Source of the DNA: Pontibacter sp. HSC-14F20
GTDB taxonomy: Bacteria > Bacteroidota > Bacteroidia > Cytophagales > Hymenobacteraceae
Direction of reading: 5' to 3'
DNA: 64,000 nucleotides
Assembly (NCBI RefSeq): GCF_019599265.1
Contig: NZ_JAHZTC010000006.1
Span: 124,001 to 188,000, forward strand
The stretch's first letter is position 1. Each line of letters begins with the position of its first letter. The notes beneath the pieces were generated by a model. That model did no database searches. It was not told the DNA's origin and saw nothing but the letters and a program-made list of their open reading frames with translations. The translations under genes were made by a program, and so were the position numbers. Positions 28,711 to 51,100 of this stretch are shown here, in pieces.

Positions 28711-29236
28711 ATGTTTTGTGGTAGGTTTTACGAAGCAGCGATATTATAATTTAAGCAAAATATGTTAACATTTAAATAAGAAAATTGCAATTTATGATTT
28801 GTACCTTTTAAATATTTAGGAATTGCTATTTAGTATTGTTTTAAAAAATTTATTTTTGCTTTATTTACAAGTTGAAAGTTCTGGCAATTTATTAAGTTGC
28901 TGAATCCGAATTGAAAAGCCCGTTTTTACTTAACAGTTATTGATAAAAATTGTACTAATTTCATGCTGGTTTATACAGTATTTGTAAAGTTTAGCCAAGT
29001 GGAAAATAGTAATATAAAATTAAGTGTCCAAAACCAGTGAACTATAACCCTGTACATCATATGAAAACACCATCGTTAACGCTAACCACTACTATATGAA
29101 GATAAACTCTACTTCCTCTTTTTCTCTTACTGGCAATTAACTGAGATGCTACAGGCTGTAGCTTCCTGTTAGACTTGTGCTTCAGCTTTCCTTACAAGCT
29201 GGTCAGAAATTCTATTTGTACTTCATTTATTATTAT
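28711..29236 (+). promoter_or_regulatory. AT-rich upstream region of the giant adhesin gene
   Basis: About 530 bp without a credible gene, strongly AT-rich with many A- and T-runs, in contrast to the GC-richer genes on both sides. It must hold the adhesin promoter, but no full TTG/TAnnTTTG pair was found; TTTGTACCTTTTAA at about 28798 and TTGTAAAGTTTAG at about 28985 are the nearest. The A/T tracts suggest curvature or binding of a nucleoid protein. Confidence 0.4.
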
Positions 29237-32200
29237 ATGAACAAACTTCTACAGTTTATTCTAGTAGCTGTCCTATATATCTGTGGCAGCATGTCAACAT
29301 TTGCCCAAGAGCGGGATATAAAGTGGGTTCAAACAGTAGGTGGAACCTCCCATGACCATGGCCGCGCTATTCAGATTGACGGAGCCGGCAATGTGTATAC
29401 GCTGGGGCATTTTTCCGCGCCATCTGCCCTGTTTGGTTCTGCATCACTTACTACGACAAGCATTGGTACCTATTTAACCAAGTATAGCAGCACGGGAGCC
29501 TTTTTGTGGGCCCGGAAAATATCCGATACCAACATAACAGACGAGGGGAGCCTGAAAACAGACGCCGCCGGGAACAGCTATGTAGTCACTTCCTTTACGG
29601 GCTCCGCTACCTTAGGTAGCTCCCTGACAAGCAGCGGCTCCAGCGACGTTGTTATTGTCAAGTATAACACAAGCGGTACAGTGCAGTGGGCTACCAAAGC
29701 CGGTGGTGCTGGTGCCGACAAGGGCACAGGTATAACAGTAGATGCATCCGGTAATAGCTACATAACAGGCAGCTTCTCAGGCACTGGTAATTTTGGCATT
29801 ACCAGTCTTGTGAGCTCTGGCAATACTGATGGCTTTGTGGCGATGCTCAACCCAAGCGGTGTCTTTGTTTGGGCACAGAAGCTAGGCGGTGCTGCTGCCG
29901 ACGAAGGCAGGGGCATTGCTATAGACGCCAACGGCGAGGTGTATGTGGCGGGCAACTTCAACGGAAACTTCACATTTGGCATCACAACGCTTACGCACGG
30001 CGGTAATCAGGACATTTTTCTGGCAGCCTATACCAGCGGCGGTATTCCAAAATGGGCCGGAAGAGCCGGCAGTAATAACAGAGACCGTGTAAATGGTTTA
30101 GGTATTGATGCAGCGGGCAACCTGTACCTGGGAGGTCACTTTAATGGAGCCCCAACTTTCGGTACAGGCATCAGCATTCCAAATAGTGGAAGTCAGGACA
30201 TCTTTCTGGCCAAATACAACAGCAGCGGCACCGCTCTATGGGCCACCAAAGCAGGAGGGGGTGGTACAGAGGAACTGCACGATCTGCATGTTGATAAGGA
30301 CGGACATCTGTACCTGACGGGCAGCTACTCGGGAAACAATATTTCCATTGGCGGACCCCTTCCAAACTCAGTTGGGGCACTCGACATATTTGCAGCGCAG
30401 TATAGCAGTGATGGCAACCCGGTATGGGGCATCGGTGCGGGCAGCGCTCTGGACGACCGTGGCTTTGGCATTACCTCCGATGCGGCCCGAAATATGTACG
30501 TAACAGGCTATTTCCAGGGCAATACAACCAACTTCGGTGGCATCGTCATACCGAATAAAGGAGGAGAAGAGACGTTTATTTCCCAACTTATTCCACTTCT
30601 GAGAACAACCAGCGTGACAGCTGGTGCTTACTGCCCCGGCCAAGCGATCACCGTAAGCTATGCTACTTCCAGGTCCCTGGGCAATGGGTATAGAGCAGAA
30701 CTGTCGGATGCCAGCGGCAGCTTCGCAAATCCTACCGCTATCGGTTCGATCAGTAACAACACAGGATCCATCACAGCCACTATACCTGCTGACACGCCAG
30801 CCGGTAACAGGTACAGAATCCGCGTGTTCTCAGTGGGCGCCCGCAGAGCGGGCGCTGACAACGGCACCGACATCATCATTAACGCCAGGCCAGCATTGCC
30901 TGAGCTCACGGCCAGTAGCCCGAGTGTGGGAGGCACGCTTTACCTTTCTGCTACGGAAATACCTGGCGCCACCTACTCATGGACAGGCCCTAACGGATTT
31001 ACTTCCAGCCTGAGAGAGCCAACCCGCGCGAACATGCGCACCACAGATGCCGGCACTTATCGCCTGACTGTTACCACAAACGGCTGTACCAGTACAGCTA
31101 CTATTGCAGTTGTGATCTCTACTGTTCCGACTTTTGATGTGGATCTTCGCGGCAACCCCAATGGGGATTGGACATCACCACCAACGAGCAGGAATGGTAG
31201 TGTGTGTGCAGATAATAACTGTATTCAGTTTAATGTGATACTGGATGCCAGGGCCGGACAGATCGTGGTGACAGTTGATGGTGGATCTGGTGGGATGGAT
31301 TATACGATAAATTGCGGCCCCAAGGTGAGGGTGGGTGATGAAGTCTGTGCTCCCAATTCAGGTATCTTTACGATCACTTTCTGTAAGCCAGGTAACAATG
31401 CGAACAGCTATACGATTAAGTCTATTGCCGCCTTTGTGCCCCAATCTGATGTGTCTCTCACTTCAGGTTGCTCAGACATCCTGAGAGCGCCTGAGACTTT
31501 TAATGAAGAAAGCATTGTATGGGAAGATCTGACAGGGAACGGAGCCTATCTAAAATACCTGAGTTTCCCGAATGGTAAAAAAGAGGCGGTAGTGACAGGC
31601 GATGATAACGCCCCAGCTTATGTGGACTACCGTGCCAGGGGTACTGCTTATCAGAGCTCGTGCTCAGATAATCTTTACTATGATGATATCCGCGTCTTTT
31701 TCTACCCTAAGCCTGTCGTCACGGTTGCCCCGACACCGGCCATTATTTGTCCCGGAGGAGGTGGGGTGGTGCTGCGTGGCAACGTAACAGGCGGTAACCA
31801 GGATGCTGGTTTTACCTACCGCTGGACAAATGCCGCCGGCACACAAGTAGGAACAGGTATCAACTACACGGCTACTGCTGTCGGCACGTACAAATTTTCG
31901 GTGATTCCGAACAACGCGCAAAACTGCGAAGAGTTCTCGTCCACCATCGATGTGGTAAGTAATCTCACTGCCAACGCTGGCCCTGACCAACTGGTATGTG
32001 CGGGCAGCACGGTGCAACTGGCAGGTACGGTGACGGCCGCTACCGGAGGCCGCTGGGTAGGCGGGGCTGGAACCTTCTCGAGCAGAACCAACCTGAATGC
32101 AACTTATTCCCCAACAACTGCCGAGTTAAATGCAGGTTCGGTAACACTTACCTTAGAGTCGACCGGAAACGGGAACTGTGGTCCGGTATATGACGAAGTG

Positions 32201-35200
32201 GTGATTTCCTTCTATAAGATGGAAATGGAACTGACAGGGACACCTGTTATATGTAACGGTACGCTGGGTACGATCACGGCCATCGTAACAGGCGCACAAG
32301 GTCCCCTGAACTATGTTTGGAGCTCCGGCGAAACCACTGCTTCCATAGCGAACAAAGCAGCCGGCACTTATTCAGTGACGGTAACGGATGCCAAAGGGTG
32401 TTCTATCCTGAAAGACTTCACGATTACACAGGTGACAGGTCCGTCTGACTTTACGGCCACACCAACCAATACTACTTGCGGTAATGCCAATGGGCAGATC
32501 ATTGTCAATAATGTGACAGGCGGAACGGCCAACTATACCTACAGCAAGGACGGAACGAACTTCCAGACGAGCAATACCTTTACAGGACTTGCAGTGGGCA
32601 ACCACACCATTACGGTGCGCGATGCCAACGGCTGTACAGTTGCCAAATCCTTCACGCTGACCAATACCCCTGGACCAACTGCAGTTGCGGCCACGTCAAA
32701 TCCTGCCAGTTGCCGCAACAACGACGGCTCGATCACAGCAGGTGAAGTAACGGGTGGCACAGGAACCAAAACCTACTCCATCAACGGTGCCAATTTCCAG
32801 GCAGGTACTACCTTCACGGGCCTCACCTCCGGCGACTATATCCTGACGGCAAAGGATGCCAATGGCTGTACCGTAACCACTTCGGTAACAGTGACGCAGG
32901 CTTCCATCACCAACTTTACAGCTACACCAGCTTCCTCTACCTGCGGCAATCCGAACGGTACTGTAACGATCTCCGGTGTAGTAGGAGGTGTAGGCGAATT
33001 GGAGTACAGTAAGAATGGCCAAACCTACCAGTCATCTAATGTCCTTACTGGCTTTGCCGCCGGCACACACACGGTGTGGGTAAGAGATTCGAAAGGCTGT
33101 GTGTTCAGCAAGTCAGTAACTGTAAGCAACATACCTGGACCGACGAACTTCACAGCAACGCCAACAGCCTCTACCTGCGGCAACGCCAATGGCCAGATTA
33201 TTGTGAGCAATGTTGTCTCTACCGGAAACAGAACCTTTACTTACTCTATTAATGGTGGCGATTATCAGTCAACTGGCACCTTTACTGGTTTGGCCGCCAA
33301 CACCTATACTATAGCGGTGCGTGATGCCAACGGCTGTACTTTCTCTAAGTCTGTGACGGTGACGAACGTGGCTGGCCCAACAGCGGTAGCGGCTACTTCC
33401 ACCTCCGCCAGCTGCCGCAACAACGACGGTACCATTACAGCAGGCGCTGTAACAGGCGGCACAGGCACGCAGGAGTACTCCATCAACGGTACTACGTTCC
33501 AGGCAGGCACTACTTTTACAGGCCTGGCTTCCGGAAACTATACCTTAACGGCCCGTGATACCAATGGCTGTACTGTAACTACTTCAGTACGAGTAGAGCA
33601 GGTGATGCCAACAGACTTCACGCTCACGCCGACTGCAGGCACTTGCGGCAACCCGAATGGTAGCGTACTGGTGAGCAATATTGTGGGCGGTGTGTCACCT
33701 TATAAGTATAGCAGAAACGGCACTACGTTTCAGGATGATGCGACGCTGACTGGCTTTGCAGCGGGAACCTATACCATCACGGTGCAGGATGCGCGTGGCT
33801 GTACTTTCTCCAAGCAAATCGCCATCACCAACGTACCAGGTCCATCTGATTTTGCTTTCACAGCAGCATCCTCTACCTGCAGTGGCACAAACGGTAGCAT
33901 CACGGTAGGAACTGTAACCGGTGGAACGGGCACCAAGACATATGCCATCAACGGCGGCAGCTTCCAGAACTCAAATGTCTTTTCCGGTTTGCGTGCTAAT
34001 AAGTATAGCATCACGGTAAAAGACGCTAACGGCTGTACGTTCTCAAAAGAAGTAACAGTAGGCGATGTGGCAGGCCCTGGCAACTTTGCTGCCACTGTGG
34101 CTAATACTACCTGCGGTGCTGCAAATGGCCAGATCACGGTAACGGGCGTGACCGGCGGAGCGGGTACCTATACCTACAGCCGCGACGGTGTGAACTTCCA
34201 GAACTCAGCTGTTTTCTCTGGCCTGGCTATAGGCACCCATACCATCACCGTTAGAGACGAAAACAACTGCCGTTTCTCCAGAACCTTCACACTCACCAAC
34301 GTGGCCGGTCCAACGGCGGTAACGGCTACTGCACAGGCTGCCAGCTGCCGCAACAACGACGGTACTATTACGGTAGGATCCGTGACAGGCGGTACCGGCA
34401 CCATGACTTACTCCATCAACGGCACTACTTTCCAGGCTGGTAAGGTGTTTAGCGGACTTGCTGCAGGACCTTACACCGTAACAGCGAAGGATGCCAATGG
34501 CTGTACCGTGACCCTCTCGGTGACGGTGGGTACGGACGTGCCGACAGACTTTGCCTTCACCACTAATCCATCTACCTGCGGCAACAGCAACGGTACGATC
34601 ACGGTGGGTACGGTAACAGGCGGCACTAGTCCATACCAGTATAGCAAGGACGGTCAGAACTTCAGCAATAATGCTACTCTTACTGGCTTCTCCTCTACTA
34701 CCCACACGATTTGGGTGCGTGACAACAAAGGCTGTGTGGTGTCGCGCCAGGTAGCGGTTAGTAACGAAGCAGGTCCTACTGACCTGGTGGCGACTGCAAC
34801 GTCATCGAGCTGCGGCAATCCGAATGGGGCACTGACGGTAACAGGTGTAACCGGTGGAAAAGAAGGTTATACCTATAGTATAGACGGCACTAACTTCCAG
34901 GCTTCGGCTACTTTCACGGCACTGGCTGCCAGAACATATAACGTAACCGTGAAAGACGCCAATGGCTGTACTTATACAGAAGCAGTGGTAGTATCGGATG
35001 TGGCGGGCCCGTCTGACTTTACGCCAGCGGTAACAGCTACCTCTTGCGGCCGCAACAACGGCAGCATCCGGGTAACGGCTGTTGTGGGCGGAACGTCAGG
35101 CTATACCTACAGCATCAATGGCGGCGTCTTCCAGACATCAAACACCTTCGGGTCGCTGGGAGCGGGTACTTACAACATCACCGTGAAGGATGCGAAGGGT

Positions 35201-38200
35201 TGTACTTTCGCGAAAGATGTGGTGGTAGAAGACGTAGCCGGACCAACAGATTTTGTGCTGACAGCGAATACCGCTACTTGCGGTGGAAGCAATGGCTCCA
35301 TCGTAGTAGGTGCTGTAACGGGTGGTACTTCCGGCTATACCTACAGCAAGGACGGGGTGAACTTTCAGGCCTCTGCTACTTTCGGAGCTTTGGCAGAAGG
35401 CACGTACACCATCACCGTAAAAGACAAAAACGGCTGTACTGTTGCGAAACAGATAGCTGTTACCAACATTGCCGGCCCTACGGATTTCACGGCCACGCTG
35501 AAAGCAACCACCTGCGGCGCGGCGAACGGTGAAATCACAGTGACTGGCGTGACGGGCAACACCACAAGCTATACCTATAGCAAAGACGGTGTGAACTTCC
35601 AAACATCGGCTACTTTCACAGGTTTGGCAGCAGGTGCCCACAGCATTACGGTAAAAGATGCTAATGGCTGTACGTTTGCTAAGTCATTTACGCTGACCAA
35701 CGTTGCCGGTCCTACAGCAGTGGCTGCTACTTCAGCTGCGGCCAGCTGCGCCAATAACGATGGTTCCATCACGGCCGGTGCAGTTACAGGTGGTACGGCT
35801 CCTTATACCTACTCAATTAACGGTACGATCTTCCAGAGCGAAACGGCTTTCACCGGCCTGGCTTCTGGTAACTATACCTTGACGGCGAAAGATGCTAACG
35901 GCTGTATTGTGACTAGAGCAGTTACGATCAACAAGAACATCCCAACCACATTTGCCACTACCTCGGTATCGTCTACCTGCGGAAGCAACAACGGTACGAT
36001 TACAGTAGGAGCGGTAACAGGCGGTTTCACTCCTTATACTTATAGCAAGGACGGCACTACCTTCCAGACGGGCACTACCCTCACAGGCTTTGTAGCCGGC
36101 ACGCATACTATCACGGTGAAGGATGCGAAAGGCTGTATCATCGCGCGTCAGGTAACAGTGAGCGATGTGGCCGGACCATCTAACCTGACTGCCTCTACCA
36201 ACTCATCGACTTGCGGTAACCCGAACGGTCAGCTGACGGTGACGAATGTAAGCGGTGGCGTAGAGCCTTATGCTTACAGCATCAACGGTGGCACTTTCCA
36301 GACTTCGACTACATTTACTGGCCTGGCGGAAGGCACCTACAGCATCTCGGTGCGTGATGCCAGCGGCTGTACCTTTGCCAAAGATGTGGTAGTAAGTAAC
36401 ATTGCCGGTCCAAACTTTACGGCAACAGCCCAGGCCTCTACCTGCGGCGCCAGCAACGGACGCATCAGTGTGAGCGAGGTAAACGGCGGTACGACCCCTT
36501 ATACCTACAGCATCAACGGCACGACTTTCCAGAGTGGCACAAGCTTTACAAATCTGTTGGCTGGTACTTACACGATTGCAGTGAAAGATGCCAACGGCTG
36601 TACAGCTACCCGCGAGGTGGAAGTGACCGACATCGCCGGTCCATCAGACCTGGCGCTTGCTTCGAAAGCCTCTACCTGTGGCAGCGCGAACGGCTCTGTT
36701 TCTGTGAACAATGTGGCGGGCGGCACGGCTCCTTATACTTATAGTATAGACGGCACCAACTTCCAGGCTACAGCTTCTTTCGGAACCGTGCTGGCGGGCA
36801 CTTATACCATCACGGTAAAAGACGCCAACGGCTGTACGTTCAGCAAAGCGATTGTAGTAGAAGATATCGCCGGACCAACTGACCTGACTGCCACAACCAA
36901 AGCGACTACCTGTGGCACCAGCAACGGTGAGATTACAGTAACAGGTGTGACAGGCGGAACTTCAGGATACACCTATAGCAAGGACGGGGTGAACTTCCAG
37001 GCTGAAACAACCCTGACAGGTTTTGCAGCGGGCACGCACACCATCACAGTGAAAGATGCCAATGGCTGTACTTTCACCAAGTCAGTTACGGTAGCCAATA
37101 TCAGCGGTCCAACGGCAGTGGCAGCTTCGACTGCGCCAGCCAGCTGTAACGACAACGACGGCTTGATCACCGCTGGAACGGTAACGGGTGGCACAGCTCC
37201 TTATACCTACAGCATCAACGGCACAAACTTCCAGAGCACAACAGCCTTTACAGGACTAGCTTCCGGAAGCTATACCTTGACAGCGAAAGACGCCAATGGC
37301 TGTATCGTGACACGCAGAGTGACGGTAGGCGAGAACGTGCCAACTAACGTTGCTCACACGACAGTGCCATCTACCTGCGGTCGCAGTGACGGTAGCATCA
37401 CAGTGGGCACGGTTACGGGTGGTACGGGTACCTATACCTATAGCATCAACAACGGCAGCTTCCAATCAGGCACCACTTTCACCGGACTGGCAGCAGGTGC
37501 TCACCGTATTACAGTACGCGACGCGAAAGGCTGTACATTCACCAAGTCGGTTACGCTGGAGAACGTGGCAGGTCCACAGTTCACAGCCTCGACCAAAGCC
37601 ACTACCTGCGGTGCCAGCAACGGCAACATTTTGGTGGGAGCAGTAACTGGCGGCGTGGCTCCTTATACCTACAGCATCAATGGTACGACTTTCCAGAGCA
37701 CGACTACTTTTGCCAATGTAATTGCAGGGGAGTACGCGGTTTCAGTGAAAGACGCCAATGGCTGTATCGGTACGGTAACAGTAGAAGTACAGGACATCGC
37801 CGGACCATCTGACTTCACACTGGCTGGCGCTTCTTCTACTTGCGGTAACAGCAACGCGAGCATCAGCGTCAGCAATGTGGTAGGCGGCACGGCTCCTTAT
37901 ACCTATAGCAAGAATGGTACTAACTTCCAGACTTCAGCCAACTTTGGTTCGCTGGCAGCAGGAGAGTACACCATCACCGTGAAAGACGCCAACGGTTGCT
38001 TGGTTGCCAAGACCATCGAAGTAACTGACATCCCTGGACCAAGCGAACTGACACTGGCCAGCACGGCCTCTACCTGCGGCAGTGCCAACGGTGTGGTAAT
38101 CGTGAATGGCGTGACCGGTGGAACAGCTCCTTATACCTACTCGATCAACGGTACCACTTATCAGGCCGGAACTCGCTTTGAGTCGGTGTTGGCAGGGAAG

Positions 38201-41200
38201 TATACCGTGACGGTAAAAGATGCCAATGGCTGTACCTTGAGCAGAGAAATCACCGTGAATGATATTGCTGGTCCTTCTGATCTGGTAGCCACTGCCAAAG
38301 CTTCTACCTGCGGCGCGGCAAACGGCGAACTGACCATCACAGGCACAACGGGCGGAACGGCTCCTTACCAGTACAGCAAAGACGGTGTGAACTTCCAGTC
38401 TGAACTGACGCTCACCGGATTTGGAGCGGGTTCGCACACCATCACCGTGCGCGACGCTAACGGCTGTACTTTCGAGAAAGCTTTTAACGTAATTAACACT
38501 GGCGGACCAACAGCAGTGGCGGCAACGTCAGGAGCGGCAAGCTGCGCCGATAACGATGGCTCGATCACAGCCGGCACAGTTATTGGTGGCACAGCTCCTT
38601 ATACCTATAGCATCAACGGTACGACTTTCCAAAGCACAACAGCCTTTACAGGACTGGCTTCTGGAGAGTATACCTTAACGGTGAAAGATGCCAACGGATG
38701 TACAGTAACCAGAACAGTTACTGTAACCAAAAACATCCCAACGACTTTTGCCTCCACCACCACTGCCACTACCTGCGGTAGCAACAACGGCACGATCACA
38801 GTGGGTGAAGTAACTGGTGGGTTCGCTCCTTATACCTATAGCAAGGATGGCACAACTTTCCAGACTTCGGCTACGCTGACTGGTTTTGTGGCCGGAACGC
38901 ATACCATCACGGTGAAGGATGCCAAAGGCTGTACCTACGCTGCACAGGTACAGGTAAGCGACATAGCGGGTCCATCTGGACTGGCTATCGCACCAAAAGC
39001 AAGTACCTGCGGTGATGCAAACGCTTCATTCGCCATCAATGGCGTGACCGGCGGCACGGCTCCTTATACCTACAGCATCGACGGCACGAACTTCCAGAGC
39101 GCAACTACTTTTGCCTCGCTGGCTGCCGGCGCCTACCAGGTGACGGTGAAGGATGCCAACGGCTGTACCTATACGCAGGCGGTAACGCTGGAGAACATCC
39201 CGGGTCCGTCTGACTTTGTAGCTTCTGCCCAGTCTTCGAGCTGCGGACGTGCGAACGGAACTGTAACAGTGGGTGACGTAACAGAAGGCACAGCGCCTTA
39301 TACCTACAGCAAAGACGGCGTGAACTTCCAGGAATCGGCTACCCTGACCGGACTACTGGCAGGCGAGCGCACGATTACGGTGAAAGATGCCAATGGCTGT
39401 ACAATTGCTAAAGTCTTGACAATAGAAGATGTGCCTGGTCCAAGCGATATGATCCTGGCTAGCACAGCCTCTACCTGCGGCAGCGCTAACGGCACGATCA
39501 ACGTGACAGGTGTAACTGGTGTGGCAGGTGGTTATACCTACAGCATCGACGGTACTAACTTCCAGCAAGGCACTGCTTTCGAAGGTGTGCTGGCCGGCAA
39601 ACATACCGTGACCGTGAAGGATGCCAACGGCTGTACCTTCAGTAAAGAGATCGTGGTAGACAACATTGCTGGTCCTACTGACCTGACTGTTTCTGCTAAG
39701 GCATCTACTTGCGGCGCAGCAAACGGCGAACTGACAGTGACGAACGTTTCAGGTGGAACGGGAGCTTATTCTTACTCCATCGATGGTACGACCTTCCAGA
39801 CAGGAGCTACCTTCACAGGTCTTCTTGCCGGAAGCCATACCATCACGGTAAAAGACGCCAACGGATGTACATTTGCCAAAACCTTCACGGTGTCTGACAT
39901 AGCAGGACCTTCTGCATTAGCGGCGAGTGCACAAGCTGCAACCTGCGCTGACAACGACGGCCGCATCTCAGCGGGCACGGTGACAGGTGGTACGGCTCCT
40001 TATACCTACAGCCTGAATGGCGGTGCTTTCCAGTCCGGAACAGCCTTCACGGCATTGGCTTCAGGCGAGTATACCCTGACGGTGCGCGACGCCAAAGGCT
40101 GCGAAACGACAACTACGGTAAAAGTCGAGAAAGACGGTCCGGGTAGCTTTGTTGCCTCAACCAATAGCTCAACCTGCGGCAGTGACAATGGCAGCATCCG
40201 AATTACCTCAATAGACGGTGGTGTGGCTCCTTATACCTACAGCTTGAACGGTGGCGCTTTCCAAAGCGCAGCCAGTTTCTCAGGTCTGATGGCAGGAGCT
40301 TACACCATCACAGTAAAAGACGCCAACAACTGTAAACACACTGAGACGATCACGATCAGCGATGTGGCTGGTCCTTCTGACCTGACTGCTTCAGCCCAGA
40401 ACACCACTTGCGGCAATAGCAACGGACAGATCAGTGTCAGCAACGTGGCAGGCGGAACTGCCCCTTATACCTACAGCATCAACAGTTCCAACTTCCAGAC
40501 ATCAGCCAGCTTCACAGCTTTGGCTGCTGGCGAGTACCTGGTAACGGTGAAAGATGCGAATGGCTGTACTTTCGCGAAAGCGGTTGCTGTAACAAACACT
40601 GATGGTCCGGAAGGATTTGCCACCACAACCAAAGCATCCACTTGCGGTGCCAGCAACGGCAGCGTGACGATTGGTGCAGTAACCGGAGGGCGCGCTCCTT
40701 ATACCTACAGCAAAGATGGATCTGACTTCCAGAATTCGGCTGAGCTGACAGGTATGGCGGCAGGCAACCACACGGTTTACATCAAAGACGCCAACGGCTG
40801 TACTTTCAGCAAAGCGGTGGTGATCGAGAACATTGCTGGTCCGACTGAGTTTGCGCTGAGGGCCTCTACAGCAACCTGCGGCGAAGCCAACGGTAGCATC
40901 ACGGCAAGCGGCGTGAAGGGCGGAACAGCTCCTTATACCTACAGCTTGAACGGCGGAGCTTTCCAAAGCGAAGTGGCATTTGTTTCGGTAGCAGCTGGTG
41001 AGCACACCATCACAGTTAAAGACGCCAATGGCTGCACAATCGAGAAGAAAGTAGTGGTAAGCAACGTAGCTGGTCCTTCCGATCTGACTGCAAACACAAC
41101 CGCTACTTCCTGCGACGCCAATGACGGAGCGATCAATGTAAGCCAGGTAACTGGCGGTGTAGCGCCTTATACCTACTCCATCAACGGCACGACTTTCCAG

Positions 41201-42736
41201 GCTTCAGCAGCTTTTGCATCGCTGGCTCCGGGTGAGTACGAGGTGAGGGTGAAGGATGCCAATGGCTGCAGTGCAGTAACAACTGTGACAGTTGGCCAGA
41301 AAGGTCCGAAAGAAGCGACGCTAACAGCAAACAAAGCAGCCTGCGGCGAAACGAACGGTTCGATCACAGTAACGGAAGTAGACGGTGGCACGGCCCCTTA
41401 TACCTACAGCCTGAACGGTGGTAGCTTCCAGACTTCAGCCACTTTCGCTAACCTGGCGGCAGGTGCTTATACCATCACCATCAAAGACGCCGAAGGCTGT
41501 GCCATCACGGTAGAGCAAACGGTAACGTCTAGTGGCGGTGTAGAAAGCTTCACGGCGACTGGAACCGATGCCAGCTGCGGGGAACGCAACGGCCGCATTG
41601 CCATCAGCGAGATTGTGGGTGGAGCAGCGCCTTATACCTACAGCATCGACAAAATCAACTTTGTGTCTGAGCCAAACTTTACTGGCTTGGCCGAAGGTGA
41701 GTACCAAGTAACGGTGAAAGACGCCAGCGGCTGCATCCTGATCGAGACGGTAACATTGCAAAACAGCCCGATGCTGACCGATGCGAAATTCACGGTTTCT
41801 GCTGCCACTTGTGGCGAAAAAGCCGGTGAGGTTGTCGTGACGGAAGTAACCGGTGGCACAGCTCCTTATACCTACTCACTCGACGGTACTAACTTCTCTG
41901 CTTCAGCCACACTGGCGAACGTAGCAGCCGGAAGCTATACCCTGATCGTGAAAGATGCCAAAGGTTGTACCTTCTCAGTTCCGGTAACAGTAGTTAGTCT
42001 CTCCAGCAAAATAGCGCAGGTTAGCCATATCAGCTGCTTCGGCGACAAGAACGGTACGATCCTGATCGAGGCAACCGGAGGCGATGCGAGCACTGAATAC
42101 AGCATCGACAACGGCAAGACCTTCCAGAAAACACCGGAGTTCACGGGACTGGCCAAAGGTACTTACCAGGTGGTAACACGCTTCTCTTCTACCTGCACCA
42201 TTACGCTGGGTGCTGTGGAGATTACAGAACCGGCTGCCCTGCAGGTAGAGATGACTGTGAATGATGGTATGCCGGGTAAACCTAACTCAGGCAGCGCCAA
42301 AGTGAGCACGATCAGCGGCGGTACGGCACCATACGTCTACTCATTAAACGGAGCAGAGTTTGTAAACGAGTCGGAGTTCCTGAACCTGCGCGGTGGTAAG
42401 CACTTCCTGAAAGTACGCGATGCCAACGGCTGTATCACAGAAGTCGAGTTTGATGTAACAAGCCTCGGCGAACTGGATATCCCGAACGGTTTCACACCGA
42501 ACGGCGACGGCATCAACGACACCTGGGTGATCCGCAATCTGCCGGAAACTTACCCTAACTGCCGCGTAACGGTTTACAACCGCTGGGGTAGCCCGGTTTT
42601 CGAATCGAAAGGATATGGCAAAGAGTGGGACGGTTCGAACAAGGGCAAACGACTGCCAGATGGTACCTACTACGCCATCATCGAGTTCGGTGACGATACG
42701 CCGGCTGTCAAGACATCAGTGACCATCATGCGTTAA
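29237..42736 (+). CDS. Giant SprB-like adhesin with type B T9SS sorting domain
   Basis: About 4,499 residues from the ATG at 29237; the frame is open from 29177, but MNKLLQFILVAVLYICGSMSTFAQ is a clean signal peptide. Order: beta-propeller-type (SBBP) repeats at about residues 30-455, with motifs like DASGNSYITGSFSG; Ig-like segments; a Cys-containing module at about 632-823; PKD-like segments to about 990; 44 SprB-type repeats of about 77 residues (about 996-4412); and a C-terminal gliding-motility-associated domain (IPNGFTPNGDGINDTWVI, 4413-4499), the type B T9SS signal. Most repeats carry two Cys (STCGxxNG and DANGC), a likely disulfide. In Flavobacterium, SprB is the cell-surface adhesin of gliding, and its export needs SprF, matched by the next gene. 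Gliding itself is not proven here. Confidence 0.93.
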   Translation: MNKLLQFILVAVLYICGSMSTFAQERDIKWVQTVGGTSHDHGRAIQIDGAGNVYTLGHFSAPSALFGSASLTTTSIGTYLTKYSSTGAFLWARKISDTNITDEGSLKTDAAGNSYVVTSFTGSATLGSSLTSSGSSDVVIVKYNTSGTVQWATKAGGAGADKGTGITVDASGNSYITGSFSGTGNFGITSLVSSGNTDGFVAMLNPSGVFVWAQKLGGAAADEGRGIAIDANGEVYVAGNFNGNFTFGITTLTHGGNQDIFLAAYTSGGIPKWAGRAGSNNRDRVNGLGIDAAGNLYLGGHFNGAPTFGTGISIPNSGSQDIFLAKYNSSGTALWATKAGGGGTEELHDLHVDKDGHLYLTGSYSGNNISIGGPLPNSVGALDIFAAQYSSDGNPVWGIGAGSALDDRGFGITSDAARNMYVTGYFQGNTTNFGGIVIPNKGGEETFISQLIPLLRTTSVTAGAYCPGQAITVSYATSRSLGNGYRAELSDASGSFANPTAIGSISNNTGSITATIPADTPAGNRYRIRVFSVGARRAGADNGTDIIINARPALPELTASSPSVGGTLYLSATEIPGATYSWTGPNGFTSSLREPTRANMRTTDAGTYRLTVTTNGCTSTATIAVVISTVPTFDVDLRGNPNGDWTSPPTSRNGSVCADNNCIQFNVILDARAGQIVVTVDGGSGGMDYTINCGPKVRVGDEVCAPNSGIFTITFCKPGNNANSYTIKSIAAFVPQSDVSLTSGCSDILRAPETFNEESIVWEDLTGNGAYLKYLSFPNGKKEAVVTGDDNAPAYVDYRARGTAYQSSCSDNLYYDDIRVFFYPKPVVTVAPTPAIICPGGGGVVLRGNVTGGNQDAGFTYRWTNAAGTQVGTGINYTATAVGTYKFSVIPNNAQNCEEFSSTIDVVSNLTANAGPDQLVCAGSTVQLAGTVTAATGGRWVGGAGTFSSRTNLNATYSPTTAELNAGSVTLTLESTGNGNCGPVYDEVVISFYKMEMELTGTPVICNGTLGTITAIVTGAQGPLNYVWSSGETTASIANKAAGTYSVTVTDAKGCSILKDFTITQVTGPSDFTATPTNTTCGNANGQIIVNNVTGGTANYTYSKDGTNFQTSNTFTGLAVGNHTITVRDANGCTVAKSFTLTNTPGPTAVAATSNPASCRNNDGSITAGEVTGGTGTKTYSINGANFQAGTTFTGLTSGDYILTAKDANGCTVTTSVTVTQASITNFTATPASSTCGNPNGTVTISGVVGGVGELEYSKNGQTYQSSNVLTGFAAGTHTVWVRDSKGCVFSKSVTVSNIPGPTNFTATPTASTCGNANGQIIVSNVVSTGNRTFTYSINGGDYQSTGTFTGLAANTYTIAVRDANGCTFSKSVTVTNVAGPTAVAATSTSASCRNNDGTITAGAVTGGTGTQEYSINGTTFQAGTTFTGLASGNYTLTARDTNGCTVTTSVRVEQVMPTDFTLTPTAGTCGNPNGSVLVSNIVGGVSPYKYSRNGTTFQDDATLTGFAAGTYTITVQDARGCTFSKQIAITNVPGPSDFAFTAASSTCSGTNGSITVGTVTGGTGTKTYAINGGSFQNSNVFSGLRANKYSITVKDANGCTFSKEVTVGDVAGPGNFAATVANTTCGAANGQITVTGVTGGAGTYTYSRDGVNFQNSAVFSGLAIGTHTITVRDENNCRFSRTFTLTNVAGPTAVTATAQAASCRNNDGTITVGSVTGGTGTMTYSINGTTFQAGKVFSGLAAGPYTVTAKDANGCTVTLSVTVGTDVPTDFAFTTNPSTCGNSNGTITVGTVTGGTSPYQYSKDGQNFSNNATLTGFSSTTHTIWVRDNKGCVVSRQVAVSNEAGPTDLVATATSSSCGNPNGALTVTGVTGGKEGYTYSIDGTNFQASATFTALAARTYNVTVKDANGCTYTEAVVVSDVAGPSDFTPAVTATSCGRNNGSIRVTAVVGGTSGYTYSINGGVFQTSNTFGSLGAGTYNITVKDAKGCTFAKDVVVEDVAGPTDFVLTANTATCGGSNGSIVVGAVTGGTSGYTYSKDGVNFQASATFGALAEGTYTITVKDKNGCTVAKQIAVTNIAGPTDFTATLKATTCGAANGEITVTGVTGNTTSYTYSKDGVNFQTSATFTGLAAGAHSITVKDANGCTFAKSFTLTNVAGPTAVAATSAAASCANNDGSITAGAVTGGTAPYTYSINGTIFQSETAFTGLASGNYTLTAKDANGCIVTRAVTINKNIPTTFATTSVSSTCGSNNGTITVGAVTGGFTPYTYSKDGTTFQTGTTLTGFVAGTHTITVKDAKGCIIARQVTVSDVAGPSNLTASTNSSTCGNPNGQLTVTNVSGGVEPYAYSINGGTFQTSTTFTGLAEGTYSISVRDASGCTFAKDVVVSNIAGPNFTATAQASTCGASNGRISVSEVNGGTTPYTYSINGTTFQSGTSFTNLLAGTYTIAVKDANGCTATREVEVTDIAGPSDLALASKASTCGSANGSVSVNNVAGGTAPYTYSIDGTNFQATASFGTVLAGTYTITVKDANGCTFSKAIVVEDIAGPTDLTATTKATTCGTSNGEITVTGVTGGTSGYTYSKDGVNFQAETTLTGFAAGTHTITVKDANGCTFTKSVTVANISGPTAVAASTAPASCNDNDGLITAGTVTGGTAPYTYSINGTNFQSTTAFTGLASGSYTLTAKDANGCIVTRRVTVGENVPTNVAHTTVPSTCGRSDGSITVGTVTGGTGTYTYSINNGSFQSGTTFTGLAAGAHRITVRDAKGCTFTKSVTLENVAGPQFTASTKATTCGASNGNILVGAVTGGVAPYTYSINGTTFQSTTTFANVIAGEYAVSVKDANGCIGTVTVEVQDIAGPSDFTLAGASSTCGNSNASISVSNVVGGTAPYTYSKNGTNFQTSANFGSLAAGEYTITVKDANGCLVAKTIEVTDIPGPSELTLASTASTCGSANGVVIVNGVTGGTAPYTYSINGTTYQAGTRFESVLAGKYTVTVKDANGCTLSREITVNDIAGPSDLVATAKASTCGAANGELTITGTTGGTAPYQYSKDGVNFQSELTLTGFGAGSHTITVRDANGCTFEKAFNVINTGGPTAVAATSGAASCADNDGSITAGTVIGGTAPYTYSINGTTFQSTTAFTGLASGEYTLTVKDANGCTVTRTVTVTKNIPTTFASTTTATTCGSNNGTITVGEVTGGFAPYTYSKDGTTFQTSATLTGFVAGTHTITVKDAKGCTYAAQVQVSDIAGPSGLAIAPKASTCGDANASFAINGVTGGTAPYTYSIDGTNFQSATTFASLAAGAYQVTVKDANGCTYTQAVTLENIPGPSDFVASAQSSSCGRANGTVTVGDVTEGTAPYTYSKDGVNFQESATLTGLLAGERTITVKDANGCTIAKVLTIEDVPGPSDMILASTASTCGSANGTINVTGVTGVAGGYTYSIDGTNFQQGTAFEGVLAGKHTVTVKDANGCTFSKEIVVDNIAGPTDLTVSAKASTCGAANGELTVTNVSGGTGAYSYSIDGTTFQTGATFTGLLAGSHTITVKDANGCTFAKTFTVSDIAGPSALAASAQAATCADNDGRISAGTVTGGTAPYTYSLNGGAFQSGTAFTALASGEYTLTVRDAKGCETTTTVKVEKDGPGSFVASTNSSTCGSDNGSIRITSIDGGVAPYTYSLNGGAFQSAASFSGLMAGAYTITVKDANNCKHTETITISDVAGPSDLTASAQNTTCGNSNGQISVSNVAGGTAPYTYSINSSNFQTSASFTALAAGEYLVTVKDANGCTFAKAVAVTNTDGPEGFATTTKASTCGASNGSVTIGAVTGGRAPYTYSKDGSDFQNSAELTGMAAGNHTVYIKDANGCTFSKAVVIENIAGPTEFALRASTATCGEANGSITASGVKGGTAPYTYSLNGGAFQSEVAFVSVAAGEHTITVKDANGCTIEKKVVVSNVAGPSDLTANTTATSCDANDGAINVSQVTGGVAPYTYSINGTTFQASAAFASLAPGEYEVRVKDANGCSAVTTVTVGQKGPKEATLTANKAACGETNGSITVTEVDGGTAPYTYSLNGGSFQTSATFANLAAGAYTITIKDAEGCAITVEQTVTSSGGVESFTATGTDASCGERNGRIAISEIVGGAAPYTYSIDKINFVSEPNFTGLAEGEYQVTVKDASGCILIETVTLQNSPMLTDAKFTVSAATCGEKAGEVVVTEVTGGTAPYTYSLDGTNFSASATLANVAAGSYTLIVKDAKGCTFSVPVTVVSLSSKIAQVSHISCFGDKNGTILIEATGGDASTEYSIDNGKTFQKTPEFTGLAKGTYQVVTRFSSTCTITLGAVEITEPAALQVEMTVNDGMPGKPNSGSAKVSTISGGTAPYVYSLNGAEFVNESEFLNLRGGKHFLKVRDANGCITEVEFDVTSLGELDIPNGFTPNGDGINDTWVIRNLPETYPNCRVTVYNRWGSPVFESKGYGKEWDGSNKGKRLPDGTYYAIIEFGDDTPAVKTSVTIMR
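32222..42472 (+). repeat. 44 tandem SprB-type repeats inside the adhesin gene
   Basis: Repeats of about 231-234 bp run in frame with the adhesin. Common core: GPSDF...STCGxxNG...VTGGTAPYTYSxNGTxFQ...FTGLxAGxYTITVKDANGCT. The first and last two copies are the most diverged. DNA identity is high in the PYTYS segment, where CCTTATACCTACAGC recurs many times, which suggests ongoing exchange between copies. Confidence 0.92.
34307..41302 (+). repeat. Higher-order array: five blocks of six SprB repeats
   Basis: A distinctive repeat type (GPTAVAATS..ASC..NDGSITAG) recurs at 34307, 35708, 37106, 38504 and 39905, and the next block boundary is at 41303. The spacings are 1401, 1398, 1398, 1401 and 1398 bp. 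The five other positions of the block also match in register; for example the AANGE-type repeat is always the last of the block. This indicates duplication in units of six. Confidence 0.85.
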
Positions 42737-42763: not shown

Positions 42764-43717
42764 ATGAAAAATAAGATATTAATTCTCTGCTTCCTGCTGA
42801 TCGCCTTCACCGCATCGGCTCAGCAGAAAGCTCTTTACTCACAGTACATGACCAATTACTTCATTCTCAACCCGGCAGTAGCTGGGTTTGAGAAGGATGT
42901 AAACATCAAAATGGGCTATCGCAATCAATGGGTTGGCTTTGAGGGAGCTCCCAAAACCTTTTATCTGAGTGGGGAAGGAGCTTTATTCAACAAGCACCTG
43001 AAGCGCAGTCGCAAGGCGCAGGGCTTCCATGGGGCAGGCGGTATGGTCTATACCGACCAGACAGGCCCAACCACCCGTACCGGTGCGCTGGCTTCCTACG
43101 CTTACCATGTGCCCTTGAACCGCAAGATATTCCTGTCGTCGGGCTTTTCTGCCGGTTTCCAGCAGTTCCGCTTCGACCCGGCCAAGGTGCGTCTGGCAGA
43201 CGGCTCCAACGAGCATGACCCCGTGACCAACCACGGCCGTGTAGACGCTTTTATGCCCGACCTGACACTCGGTACTTTCATGCACTCAGAAGACTTTTAC
43301 TTCGGGATTTCCCTGTTTCAGGTGCTTGGCAACAAGATAAATGAAGTGGATGGGGGAGAAGAAGTGAGTCGCCTATCGCGCCACTTGTTTGTGTCGGGTG
43401 GGTACAACTATGATGTGCACGACAAGGTTCGCCTGATGCCTTCAGCTTTGCTCAAGTATGTGCAGGGGGCTCCAATTCAGGCTGATTTTAACGTGAAAGC
43501 TGCCTACCATATGAGCAAGCGCCGCCAGAAGTCAGTGTACGACGATCAGGTATGGGGAGGCATCTCTTACCGTACCCAGGATGCCATTGTAGGCCTGGTT
43601 GGAGTGCAGTTTCAGGAGCAGTTCCAGCTGAGCTATACCTACGACATCACGGTGTCGCCTGTGCGCCACCATAGTGCAGGTTCACATGAAATCGTATTAG
43701 GTTATCGCTTCAAGTAA
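42764..43717 (+). CDS. PorP/SprF family T9SS outer-membrane protein
   Basis: A 317-residue protein. It has a signal peptide (MKNKILILCFLLIAFTASA), then QQKALYSQYMTNYFILNPAVAGFEKDVNIKMGYRNQWVGFEGAPKTFYLS (read in parts), the hallmark N-terminus of PorP/SprF proteins, beta-rich throughout with a C-terminal strand EIVLGYRFK. In Flavobacterium johnsoniae SprF is needed to get SprB to the surface, and PorP/SprF-like partners typically sit directly after genes for type B sorting-domain cargo. It starts 27 bp after the adhesin stop codon and is surely co-transcribed, so it is the probable dedicated partner of that adhesin. Confidence 0.95.
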   Translation: MKNKILILCFLLIAFTASAQQKALYSQYMTNYFILNPAVAGFEKDVNIKMGYRNQWVGFEGAPKTFYLSGEGALFNKHLKRSRKAQGFHGAGGMVYTDQTGPTTRTGALASYAYHVPLNRKIFLSSGFSAGFQQFRFDPAKVRLADGSNEHDPVTNHGRVDAFMPDLTLGTFMHSEDFYFGISLFQVLGNKINEVDGGEEVSRLSRHLFVSGGYNYDVHDKVRLMPSALLKYVQGAPIQADFNVKAAYHMSKRRQKSVYDDQVWGGISYRTQDAIVGLVGVQFQEQFQLSYTYDITVSPVRHHSAGSHEIVLGYRFK

Positions 43718-48121: not shown

Positions 48122-51100
48122 ATGAGAAAGAACTTTACACGATTGATTAGTAGTGTTACCCGAACCAAAAGCTTTGCAATCGCCCTCACCAGCCTGATGA
48201 TTCTGGCTGGTTCTGTGTATTTAATGGCGGCTGTGGGTGTAACAGTCACAGGAGGAGGAACATTTCCTATTTCTGCTGATTTAGCAGCGAATGCCACTCT
48301 TACAACTCCAAGTTATACACCTATAGGTGCCATCACCATTAGAGAAGAGTCTGTTAATGACTTTGCATCCAGTGGTAATATAGTGCTGAGAGCACCTGCA
48401 GGCTGGCGGTTTAGGAGTACTGGCGTCACACGAACTGCAGGGTTATTCGATGACAATGGAACTACTAATATAACTTTAGGGGCTGCAGCTTATAGCTCAG
48501 ATGGCTCAACAATTACTTTTTCATTAACAGTTAATAATACAAATAAGAGAGATGAAATAGTTATCTCCGGCGTTCAGGTTCAAGCCTTAGATGGTACCAG
48601 CATACCTGCTACTGGAAGTATCAGAGTTGAAGTATCTGGGGGTGCATTAGTTTCAGGACTGCCTACTACTTTGTCTCAATCTATATCTCAAGCTCCTGGT
48701 GCAGTAAAACAACTTGCATTCATCACGCAGCCATCTGATGAGCTACTAGGAGAATCCATAACTCCTGCAGTGCAAGTTCAGGCTAGAGACCAGTTTAGTA
48801 ACATAGTACCAAATCCTTCTATCTCCCTGGCGCTTGGATCCAACCCTGGAAGTGGTTCATTAATAGCAGGCACTTCTTCTACTTCAAATGGCGTGGTTAC
48901 TTTCTCGGGTTATAGCATCAATAGAGTCGGTATAGGGTATACACTTTCCGCCTCTAGTACAGGGGCCTCCAGTGTTATTAGCAACGCCTTTACCGTTAAC
49001 AACAGGAAACCTACTATCAGTACCGTAAGCGGTTGTTTGTCAGTTGGCGACCCTGCAACTACGATCACTATTACCGGTACAAACTTTGTGACTGGGGCCA
49101 CTATGTTAGTCAATGGTCAATCAAGACCAGCAACTTTTACGAATTCAACTACTCTTACCACTTCCATAAGCGCTGCTGAATTAGCCTCTGCAGGAAATTT
49201 GTCTATTGTAGTCAAAAATCCGGCACCTGCTCAAGACAATGGCGAGTCAGAGGCTTTTAGCAAACCTGTGAACGCCTTGCAGTCTGCAGGCACTATTTCA
49301 GGTGTGTCAGAAATTTGTCCGGGAGAATCTAATGTTGAACTTTCTGTGCCTACAAACAGTGATGTTACATCTTACCAATGGACCGTTGTGTCAGGTGGTG
49401 CAACTATTGTTTCTGGAGGCAATACCAGGACTGCACGCCTGAACTTTGGTAATACTGCCGGTCCTGTGCAAGTATCAGTAGTAGCTTTCAACACTTGTGG
49501 TAAACCAGGCCCTGCCACAACCCGCACCATCACGATCAAGCCAACGCCTGTTGTAACGGTGTCTGCGCAGAATGATGATACTGCTGTATGCCAAGGTGAA
49601 TCTGTTGTTTTATCAGCTGCTGGGGCAAACTCTTACGTTTGGTCTGGTACAGGTATAGCTGCTGGCACAACAGGTAACACACTTACTGTTACACCTACAG
49701 TCACTACTACCTATACCGTAATAGGAACCACAGATGATTGTCCCTCTGCGCCAAGGACTATCACCATCAATGTAACCCCAGCACTGACACAGGGAGTTAT
49801 TTCAGGTGTAAACGAATACTGCCACAATGCTTCGGCAACCGCTATAACAGCTTCCATAACAGGAGGAGGTAGTGCTACCAAGTCTTATAAATGGGAAAGA
49901 AGCACTACAGGTGCCAACGGTCTTTGGACTGAGGTGGGAACATCAGCGAATTTTACTCCATTAACTACCGCAACTGGTACTTCGTGGTATAGAAGAACGG
50001 TAAGTGCAGGAGAGTGCTCTGTAACTTCTGCTGCGTTTCCAGTATTGGTTAAATCGAACCCAACCATTACGGTGGAGGCGAGTGAGAACGCGATCTGCCA
50101 GGGAGAAACTGTTGAACTGACAGCAGAAGGCGCTGATAGCTACATCTGGTCTGGTACAGGCATGCCTGCTGGCGCCACAAGTGATAAAGTTACAGTTACA
50201 CCAACTGTCACAACCACATACACCGTAGTAGGTGTGATCGATGGCTGCCAGTCAACGCCGCAAACTGTTACGATTACTGTCACGCCAACCCTTACCCAAG
50301 GAGCCATTACTGGTGTAACGCAATACTGCCAGACTGTAGGTGGTTTTGGTACTGCTCTGAGCAGTACAGTAGGCGGTGGCGTAGCAGCTAAATCGTACCT
50401 GTGGGAGCAAAGTCCGAATGGCACCAGCGATTGGGAACCGGCCGAAAATACGAACAATGGAGCCTCCTATACTCCTTCTATCTCAGAAGCAGGCACTATG
50501 TATTACCGGAGAGCGGTTGAGTCAGGTAGTTGTGTTTCAATTGGGGAACCGGTTGCTGTGACAGTCACCCCATCCATAACAAACACCATCACATCAGCAA
50601 ACCAGGTAGTTTGCTCTGGCGAAACGATTAGCCAAATTACCGGAACCGTTTTGGGAGGAAGTCCGGATGAGGTGAGTTACCAGTGGGAGCAGAGTGCTAA
50701 TGGCACCAGCGGTTGGGGAGATGCACCAGGTGCTAGTAAGGACCTCAACTATACACCGGAAGAAGAAGTTGTAAACACTTCCAAAACCACCTATTACAGA
50801 CGCAAAGTTGTTTCCGGAAACTGTACCAGCTTTAGCGAGCCGGTAAGTATCAGAATCGTGGCAATGCCGATAGCTGAAATTTTGGATGGGGCCAACGATT
50901 ACTTCTGCCCGCCTGCCTCCGCTACCTTAACTGCCCGCACTGGTACAGGCTATCGCTATACCTGGTACAAAGTTGTGCAAGGAGGCGATGATGAACATGT
51001 TGGCACTGATCAGAATACCTATACTACTAACGTTGAAGGCTACTACTATGTGGTTGTTAAGGGGGAGAATGATTGTACAACTACTTCTTCAGTAACCCAA

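Follow-up and report, generated by a model that had tools for sequence, protein, structure and literature searches.

A higher-order repeat of six in a giant SprB-repeat adhesin of Pontibacter, probably the main unit of its stalk length change

Introduction

Super-repeats, or repeats of repeats, are described for the A-band of titin, where growth through super-repeat duplication has been proposed (PMC10665226), and highly similar repeats with length variation between strains are described for the Periscope Proteins (PMC8201768, PMC9704523). Here we report on a giant adhesin gene of Pontibacter sp. HSC-14F20 that resembles both systems in part. It lies on a 64,000-nucleotide stretch of DNA (contig NZ_JAHZTC010000006.1, positions 124,001 to 188,000, forward strand), hereafter the window, and its stalk consists of SprB-type repeats that themselves form a repeat of six.

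Like the A-band of titin, the adhesin has immunoglobulin (Ig)-type domains in which like positions resemble each other and carry position-specific conserved residues (PMC10665226). Titin differs in being a eukaryotic muscle protein of Ig and fibronectin type III domains that is associated with the thick filament (PMC10665226). Unlike titin, the Pontibacter adhesin differs in length between species by whole blocks, and no partner of such a period is known.

Periscope Proteins are bacterial surface stalks of tandem folded domains; their length depends on the number of repeats, and recombination has been proposed as the cause (PMC8201768, PMC9704523). The Pontibacter adhesin is like them in that its length changes with repeat number. 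It lacks the high identity between repeats described for them, its repeats having a mean protein identity of about 0.49, and its step is six repeats; its variation is known between species, whereas Periscope Proteins vary between strains (PMC8201768, PMC9704523). In those proteins length varies per repeat among similar repeats (PMC8201768, PMC9704523), while the main heritable unit here is a block of six distinct repeats.

Another close system is SprB and SprF, the gliding adhesin system of Flavobacterium, which also combine SprB repeats, a C-terminal domain of type B of the type IX secretion system (T9SS) and an adjacent gene of the PorP/SprF family (PMC12635249, PMC9143113, PMC9870892). Twin cysteines in the C-tail of SprF are required for normal gliding (PMC12635249). 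Unlike gliding SprF, the partner in the window has no twin cysteines, and the period is six here as against seven in another giant protein (L140) and its four relatives. No description of super-repeats in SprB-type adhesins was found among the matches listed in the open-access literature, subscription papers being mostly unsearchable.

The repeat array

The array was cut at the conserved cysteine anchor, which gave 41 canonical repeats of 77-79 amino acids (aa) each, R01 starting at 32438. A scan with a hidden Markov model (HMM) returned 44 repeats including degenerate end units, in agreement with the 44 counted in an earlier reading of the sequence alone. The gene and its repeat units are as follows.

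29177..42736, + strand: giant T9SS type B adhesin, open reading frame (ORF) of 4519 aa (ORF list, translation, domain matches)
32213..32437, + strand: divergent leader repeat, unit 1 (HMM anchors, 75-residue step)
32438..34306, + strand: repeats R01-R08, with markers R02 (32672) and R05 (33374), spacing 3 and 4
34307..35707, + strand: six-repeat block 1, R09-R14, 1401 bp
35708..37105, + strand: six-repeat block 2, R15-R20, 1398 bp
37106..38503, + strand: six-repeat block 3, R21-R26, 1398 bp; R23 matches R18 at lag 5
38504..39904, + strand: six-repeat block 4, R27-R32, 1401 bp; AlphaFold2 model with a mean predicted local distance difference test (pLDDT) of 92.9
39905..41071, + strand: five-repeat block, R33-R37, 1167 bp
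41072..41302, + strand: R38, marker-like repeat (77 aa, ANDG), under the marker threshold in Pontibacter sp. HSC-14F20
41303..42004, + strand: R39-R41, the final canonical repeats, followed by degenerate units

The marker repeats, 77 aa long and of the GPTAVAATS..NDGSITAG type, have their starts at 32672, 33374, 34307, 35708, 37106, 38504 and 39905. They are R02, R05, R09, R15, R21, R27 and R33, with spacings of 3, 4, 6, 6, 6 and 6. The sequence-only reading had the marker recurring at every sixth repeat five times, after spacings of 3 and 4. The 3 and 4 (R02, R05, R09) are confirmed, and so are four blocks of 1401, 1398, 1398 and 1401 bp; the fifth is not. A fifth block of 1398 bp, ending at 41302, lands on the non-marker R39. 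The true block is shorter: R38 (TSCDANDGAINVSQ, 77 aa), the marker-like repeat that follows, starts at 41072, five repeats or 1167 bp after 39905. R38 stays under the marker threshold in the window genome, while its counterpart exceeds the threshold in some relatives. The same reading had the other five positions matching in register as well. In-register likeness is strong for the marker itself. The claim for the others holds for the pre-marker position (in-register protein identity 0.64-0.74) and the fifth (0.59-0.72), the last block excepted (0.47 and 0.53), and partly for the second; the third and fourth positions are weak, at 0.49-0.58. The match of R18 with R23 at lag 5 is a register slip.

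Over all repeats, mean identity at lag 6 was 0.569 for protein and 0.608 for nucleotides (nt), against 0.492 and 0.563 expected (z=7.2 for both), and none of 20,000 permutations of repeat order reached as high. Lag 12 was also raised (z=3.7 protein, 4.3 nt), and lag 1 was not raised in this permutation test on the window array (z -0.7 and -0.4). Within R09-R38, 26 of 30 repeats are nearer to a repeat six positions away than to their neighbours, so that the outcome named as refuting the sequence-only reading, neighbours closer than repeats six apart, is not what the array shows. Recurrence of the marker alone does not account for the signal: when the marker repeats were removed, lag 6 was still the top lag, at a nucleotide identity of 0.618 against 0.571-0.600 for lags 1-5 and 7-12. 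Chance and artefacts of segmentation were ruled out by the permutation test together with alignment-free repeat counts. The repeat region is a higher-order repeat, or super-repeat, in which like positions are closer than neighbours, weakly so for two of the six positions.

Orthologues and age of the block

Orthologues were sought with the Ig-like region as the probe.

30599..32212, + strand: Ig-like/linker region, the bulk of the orthologue probe (probe matches in genus genomes)

Among 50 genomes of the genus 37 matched, 30 of them strongly, the window genome included (E <= 5.3e-113, 48-100% identity); the seven weak matches (best E 6.3e-30 to 9.1e-14) were left out as orthologues. Each of the 29 other Pontibacter orthologues is a long frame with a sorting domain at its end. 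The comparison covers one genome per species, so that differences are between species. Most relatives are in several contigs, and the window genome is in 97.

A marker spacing of six is present in all 30 Pontibacter arrays. A family-level search of 150 genomes gave probe matches in eight genomes from two other genera, from which seven arrays were taken, all with the six-spacing; that of G080 (a 186-aa frame) was not taken in, and the frames of G063 and G067 are cut at the region end. Two of the arrays from other genera, G054 and G059, have six successive spacings of six each. Across the 37 arrays, 129 of 179 marker spacings are six, the others being 3 (20), 5 (14), 9 (9), 4 (6) and 10 (1); unit-1 marker calls in G054, G059, G063 and G095 were left out of this tally and of the class labels.

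The earlier suggestion that the six-unit block arose later than the start of the array is not supported, as the six-spacing is found throughout the genus and in two other genera, and a recent, local origin is ruled out by orthologues of three genera. The block therefore seems older than the split of the three genera. Since several relatives have the six-spacing from the first marker onwards, the 3-and-4 start of the window array is more likely a local, derived part.

Length differences between species

Before repeats were counted, the degenerate units at the two ends of each array were removed, G033 having an end limit of its own. In 25 Pontibacter arrays the trimmed repeat counts are 42 (six arrays), 41 (six), 35 (five), 29 (three), 53, 47, 36, 24 and 17; the counts in the remaining clade of five are 34, 34, 45, 38 and 22. 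This clade is made up of G002, G014, G028, G036 and G041. The count is 0 or 5 modulo (mod) 6 in 25 of the 30 arrays, that is, in all those outside the clade of five.

Close pairs, defined by an aligned protein identity >0.70, number 70 of 435. Their counts differ by 0 (23 pairs), 1 (12), 5 (3), 6 (19), 11 (4), 12 (6), 18 (2) or 24 (1) repeats, and none of the 70 differs by 2-4 or 7-10. Under four gap settings (65-78 pairs), gap lengths between close pairs were confined to 1, 5, 6, 11, 12, 18 and 24. Among the full 435 pairs, the difference falls at 0, 1 or 5 mod 6 in 358 and at 2, 3 or 4 in 77. When 15 disjoint pairs were chosen greedily, six were equal, five differed by a multiple of six and four by a multiple ±1. 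A single additional unit (unit 11), carried by some members of the window's own group, could account for the differences of 1, 5 and 11.

Because the tree of the non-repeat parts conflicts with the similarity of the arrays, changes were counted on a tree of the last 15 units, gap lengths and trees coming from custom scripts. The 30-array tree needs 18 length changes, on average 7.8 of them multiples of six. The 25-array tree, from which the clade of five was left out, needs 14: there are 8-9 multiples of six, the rest fall at ±1 mod 6, and changes of 2, 3 or 4 mod 6 are absent from this tree. Stop-to-stop frames of close relatives measure 2901 and 2901 aa as against 3367, 3368 and 3374 aa.

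It had been proposed from the sequence alone that the adhesin grows in steps of 1.4 kb, or about 466 residues. This survives for the step, as length changes are mostly whole six-repeat steps, and not for simple ongoing growth in the window. The window blocks are only about 63% identical to each other (nt), their silent sites are close to saturated (identity 0.438 at lag 6, compared with 0.383-0.445 for the remaining lags), and the array has no internal exact match of at least 30 bp. With the best-resolved event (below) best read as a loss as well, ongoing growth here is unsupported. Counted from the C-terminal end, the last 17 units stay in register between species (mean identity 0.60-0.68), while counted from the N-terminal end it fades past unit 3 (0.51-0.58), and most change therefore lies away from the membrane anchor.

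The cleanest single event is seen between G026, with 29 units, and G011, with 35. Units 1-7 of the one pair with units 1-7 of the other (0.89-0.97 nt), and units 8-29 of G026 pair with units 14-35 of G011 (0.79-0.92 nt), an exact difference of six repeats. The switch point is an inter-repeat linker, where about 14 bp are common to both partners (by eye). The block missing from G026 has no recent internal copy in G011 (best internal pair 0.77), so that the difference is best read as a loss in G026, the simpler reading of the two sequences. G031 and G003 show a second difference of six units that is clean save at unit 3, which has a slightly better match to a unit of like class, and the comparison of G023 with G004 is mostly clean. 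G036 and G014 differ by 6 plus 5 units.

The window adhesin is a mosaic: its N-terminal Ig-like part (29312-32428) is nearest to G040, at 81%, and its array (32438-42004) is nearest to G042, at 0.92. Adhesin parts have likely been exchanged between species, and counts of independent events are approximate for that reason.

Repeat classes and silent sites

The class tests used only units that lie between markers six repeats apart. Identity at fourfold silent sites is 0.442 at lag 6 and 0.437 at lag 12, compared with 0.408-0.425 at lags 1-5, 7-11 and 13 and 0.384 for random pairs; by class it ranges over 0.407-0.493. With silent sites near saturation, the block copies are old, with some residual exchange. 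The class residues persist nonetheless: the nearest repeat in another genus is of the same class in 603 of 774 cases and, since the marker-class label is partly built in by construction, in 474 of 645 without the marker class. Class differences peak in columns 1-13 and 66-78, and also in columns 14-26 for classes 0 and 5, which places them close to repeat ends and linkers. Of 129 marker (class 0) units, 126 lack one residue at the linker and are 77 aa long.

Discussion

We think it probable that the six-repeat block is the main unit of stalk length change, through recombination combined with selection on repeat order. In this reading six Ig-like SprB repeats, all distinct in sequence, recur in a fixed order. 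Recombination, more favoured between like positions, would generate new array lengths, and lineages would retain those arrays that keep the six classes in order. The class-specific residues, mainly at repeat ends, probably fit particular neighbours, and for this the order would matter. The T9SS would export the adhesin, the adjoining PorP/SprF protein would keep it at the cell surface, and each block would add a quantum of about 466 residues to the stalk. Recombination in register with selection on order is favoured because silent sites are near saturation and the class residues nevertheless persist across genera.

Several observations weigh against this explanation. Six is not obligatory, because the clade of five keeps a mixed 6 and 5 spacing, and 3-unit blocks are found in G040 and G024. 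Of five short and long pairs compared unit by unit, two are clean or nearly so and one mostly, and in the other two (G049/G033 and G046/G005) the pairing is muddled. Distant pairs also have gap lengths such as 4 and 10, and the counts in close pairs are not independent, owing to shared history. Trees of the non-repeat ends and of the arrays disagree, and ready-made array lengths may have been carried by exchange between species. Silent similarity persists within classes (0.493 in class 4, 0.458 in class 0), so their likeness is maintained by exchange as well. The class test depends on labels derived from marker positions, classes 2 and 3 separate poorly (70 and 79 of 129 assigned correctly across genera), and the column peaks are uncorrected for differences in variability between columns. 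The selection step itself is a statistical inference.

The strongest rival, which we hold to be possible though the less probable account, is that the recombination register suffices: like repeats lie six apart, unequal exchange and gene conversion fall there, and selection on order is unneeded. Exact self-matches of at least 30 bp speak for it, as they do for the recombination in the favoured explanation. Of 159 such matches in the 30 arrays, 60 lie at multiples of 6 and 101 at multiples of 3; lags 11 and 22 account for 24, and lag 1 for only three. In 25 arrays, the clade of five being left out of tract shares and densities, the density of such tracts per unit pair at lag 6 is 11 times its mean over lags 1, 2, 4, 5, 7, 8, 10 and 11. 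Their lags track the local block size, at 3 in G040 (5/9) and G024 (6/7) and at 11 and 22 in G036 (18/22), a member of the mixed clade; in four of the five arrays of that clade lag 11 has the highest mean identity among lags 1-13. As there are blocks of 3 and 5, homology rather than a fixed six would set the step. Of 94 tracts in labelled units, 72 are in classes 5, 0 and 1, around the marker (65 more are in unlabelled units). Near-identical tracts link like positions in several relatives; the orthologue of the single-contig genome G021 (L046) has a 606-bp identical tract at lag 12, between units 8-10 and 20-22, which would most simply be recent gene conversion between like positions.

What speaks against recombination register alone is that shorter substrates are available everywhere. 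Tracts of 12-20 bp, like the match of about 14 bp at the G026 linker, are spread over all lags, with 19-30% at lags 6, 12 and 18; the share of exact tracts at these three lags (of lags 1-18) rises from 0.19 at a length of at least 12 bp to 0.48 at 30 bp or more. Despite such substrates, the 25-array tree has no change of 2, 3 or 4 mod 6, and 9 whole-block changes of 14 are unlikely given the 12-20 bp shares (P 0.00025-0.0083; P=0.0011 with the 15-bp share). With the share for tracts of at least 30 bp (0.48), the same 9 of 14 are not unusual (P=0.17), which counts against selection on order. The near-saturated silent sites beside class residues that persist across genera also speak against register alone. 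An ordered block kept in three genera under these conditions separates recombination register from order selection; the two are normally confounded, and become testable in an environmental genus.

A fixed structural pitch, in which six repeats make one turn or binding period and only multiples of six keep the geometry, appears improbable. It would agree with the conservation of six classes across genera, with the one-residue-short linker of class 0, and with five giant SprB-repeat proteins of another family that have a regular period of seven. It sits badly with blocks of 3 and 5 repeats and with the difference of 6 plus 5 units between G036 and G014, and the model of a block leaves relative domain orientation uncertain, with a predicted template modelling score (pTM) of 0.52. 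Chance, segmentation or assembly artefact can be dismissed almost entirely: most relatives and the window genome (97 contigs) are fragmented and drafts can mis-assemble repeats, but the period has z=7.2, recurs in 37 arrays and is seen in the single-contig genomes G021 and G036, the window array has no exact repeat of at least 30 bp to mislead assembly, and the count differences are alignment-free.

Beyond recombination with selection on order, we raise more speculatively that the six-class block might be a functional module, and more than a remnant of recombination, whose classes fit their neighbours and maybe a periodic partner or an adjacent fibre. Giant T9SS adhesins would then be assembled and resized in fixed quanta, six here and seven in the L140 group, as bacterial counterparts of titin-like molecular rulers.

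Predicted structure and other SprB-repeat families

Block 4 was modelled with AlphaFold2 on an alignment of 11 other blocks from the window and L068. The model has six all-beta domains with a mean pLDDT of 92.9, and its pTM of 0.52 leaves inter-domain orientation uncertain. Its best Foldseek matches are structures of fragments of GhpA, the grappling hook protein of Aureispira (9flw, 9flp and others; best E 5.4e-20, 16-20% identity). The likeness is in the tandem-domain fold only, with TM-scores of 0.34-0.48 by query length and root-mean-square deviations of 8-11. Sequence search alone gave no match among solved structures. Each of the 41 canonical repeats has a pair of cysteines at fixed alignment positions, and the pairs are invariant in the 12-block alignment; this suggests one disulfide per repeat domain.

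The SprB-repeat family PF13573 was sought in 198 genomes of the phylum, of which 38 match at E 1e-9 or better. From 16 hand-picked giant-frame regions came 12 arrays with at least 10 consecutive units (L139, L149, L150 and L151 fell short). Five arrays, all of one family (f7: L136, L137, L138, L140 and L141), peak at lag 7 with z 3.9-11.5. L144 peaks at lags 3 and 6 (z 5.8 and 4.0) and L147 weakly at lag 6 (2.9), while L142, L143, L145, L146 and L148 have no lag of 4 or more above z 2.4; lags 1-2 are raised in L142 and L146. As the five lag-7 proteins can be aligned to one another over >2200 aa (28-43% identity), they are counted as one evolutionary case. In L140 (8-11929), the best partner lies exactly seven units away for 26 of 40 units. 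Its protein has a type B domain, and the adjacent PorP/SprF protein has twin cysteines in the C-tail, Cys310 and Cys312; the twin-cysteine check among the lag-7 proteins covers L140 alone. A period of seven in a second giant SprB-repeat group, with one member beside a gliding-type SprF, hints at a wider rule.

The adhesin gene and its neighbourhood

The remaining features of the gene and its partner are these.

29312..30598, + strand: N-terminal SBBP beta-propeller region, borders approximate (PF06739 E 5.7e-12)
42476..42730, + strand: CHU_C / T9SS type B C-terminal sorting domain, residues 4434-4518 (PF13585 E 3.9e-26, TIGR04131 E 4.6e-17)
42764..43717, + strand: PorP/SprF-family outer-membrane partner, 27 bp downstream of the adhesin (PF11751 E 1.6e-77, TIGR03519 E 1e-82)

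The adhesin probably starts at the ATG at 29237, with a signal-peptide-like MNKLLQFILVAVL... The N-terminal region (residues 184-450) matches NF047494 with E 3.5e-36, yet under its cut-off. The tandem SprB repeats score 607.6 bits with PF13573 over 23 stretches, the sorting domain scores 61.9 bits with TIGR04131 (cut-off 35) and 91.4 bits with CHU_C (cut-off 27), and the adjoining PorP/SprF protein scores 277.9 bits with TIGR03519. The window adhesin is thus a member of the SprB-repeat T9SS type B class with a PorP/SprF partner. In the cysteine check this partner has no twin cysteines in the C-tail, its sole cysteine being Cys9, and we do not claim membership in a gliding system for that reason. 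The window adhesin may be static, given a partner that lacks the gliding-type cysteines.

The window also holds a second giant ORF at 48122-56383 (2753 aa), with PKD_5 (7 stretches) and Ig_7 repeats. It also has a weak T9SS sorting tail, at 21.9 bits for Por_Secre_tail, under the 27-bit cut-off.

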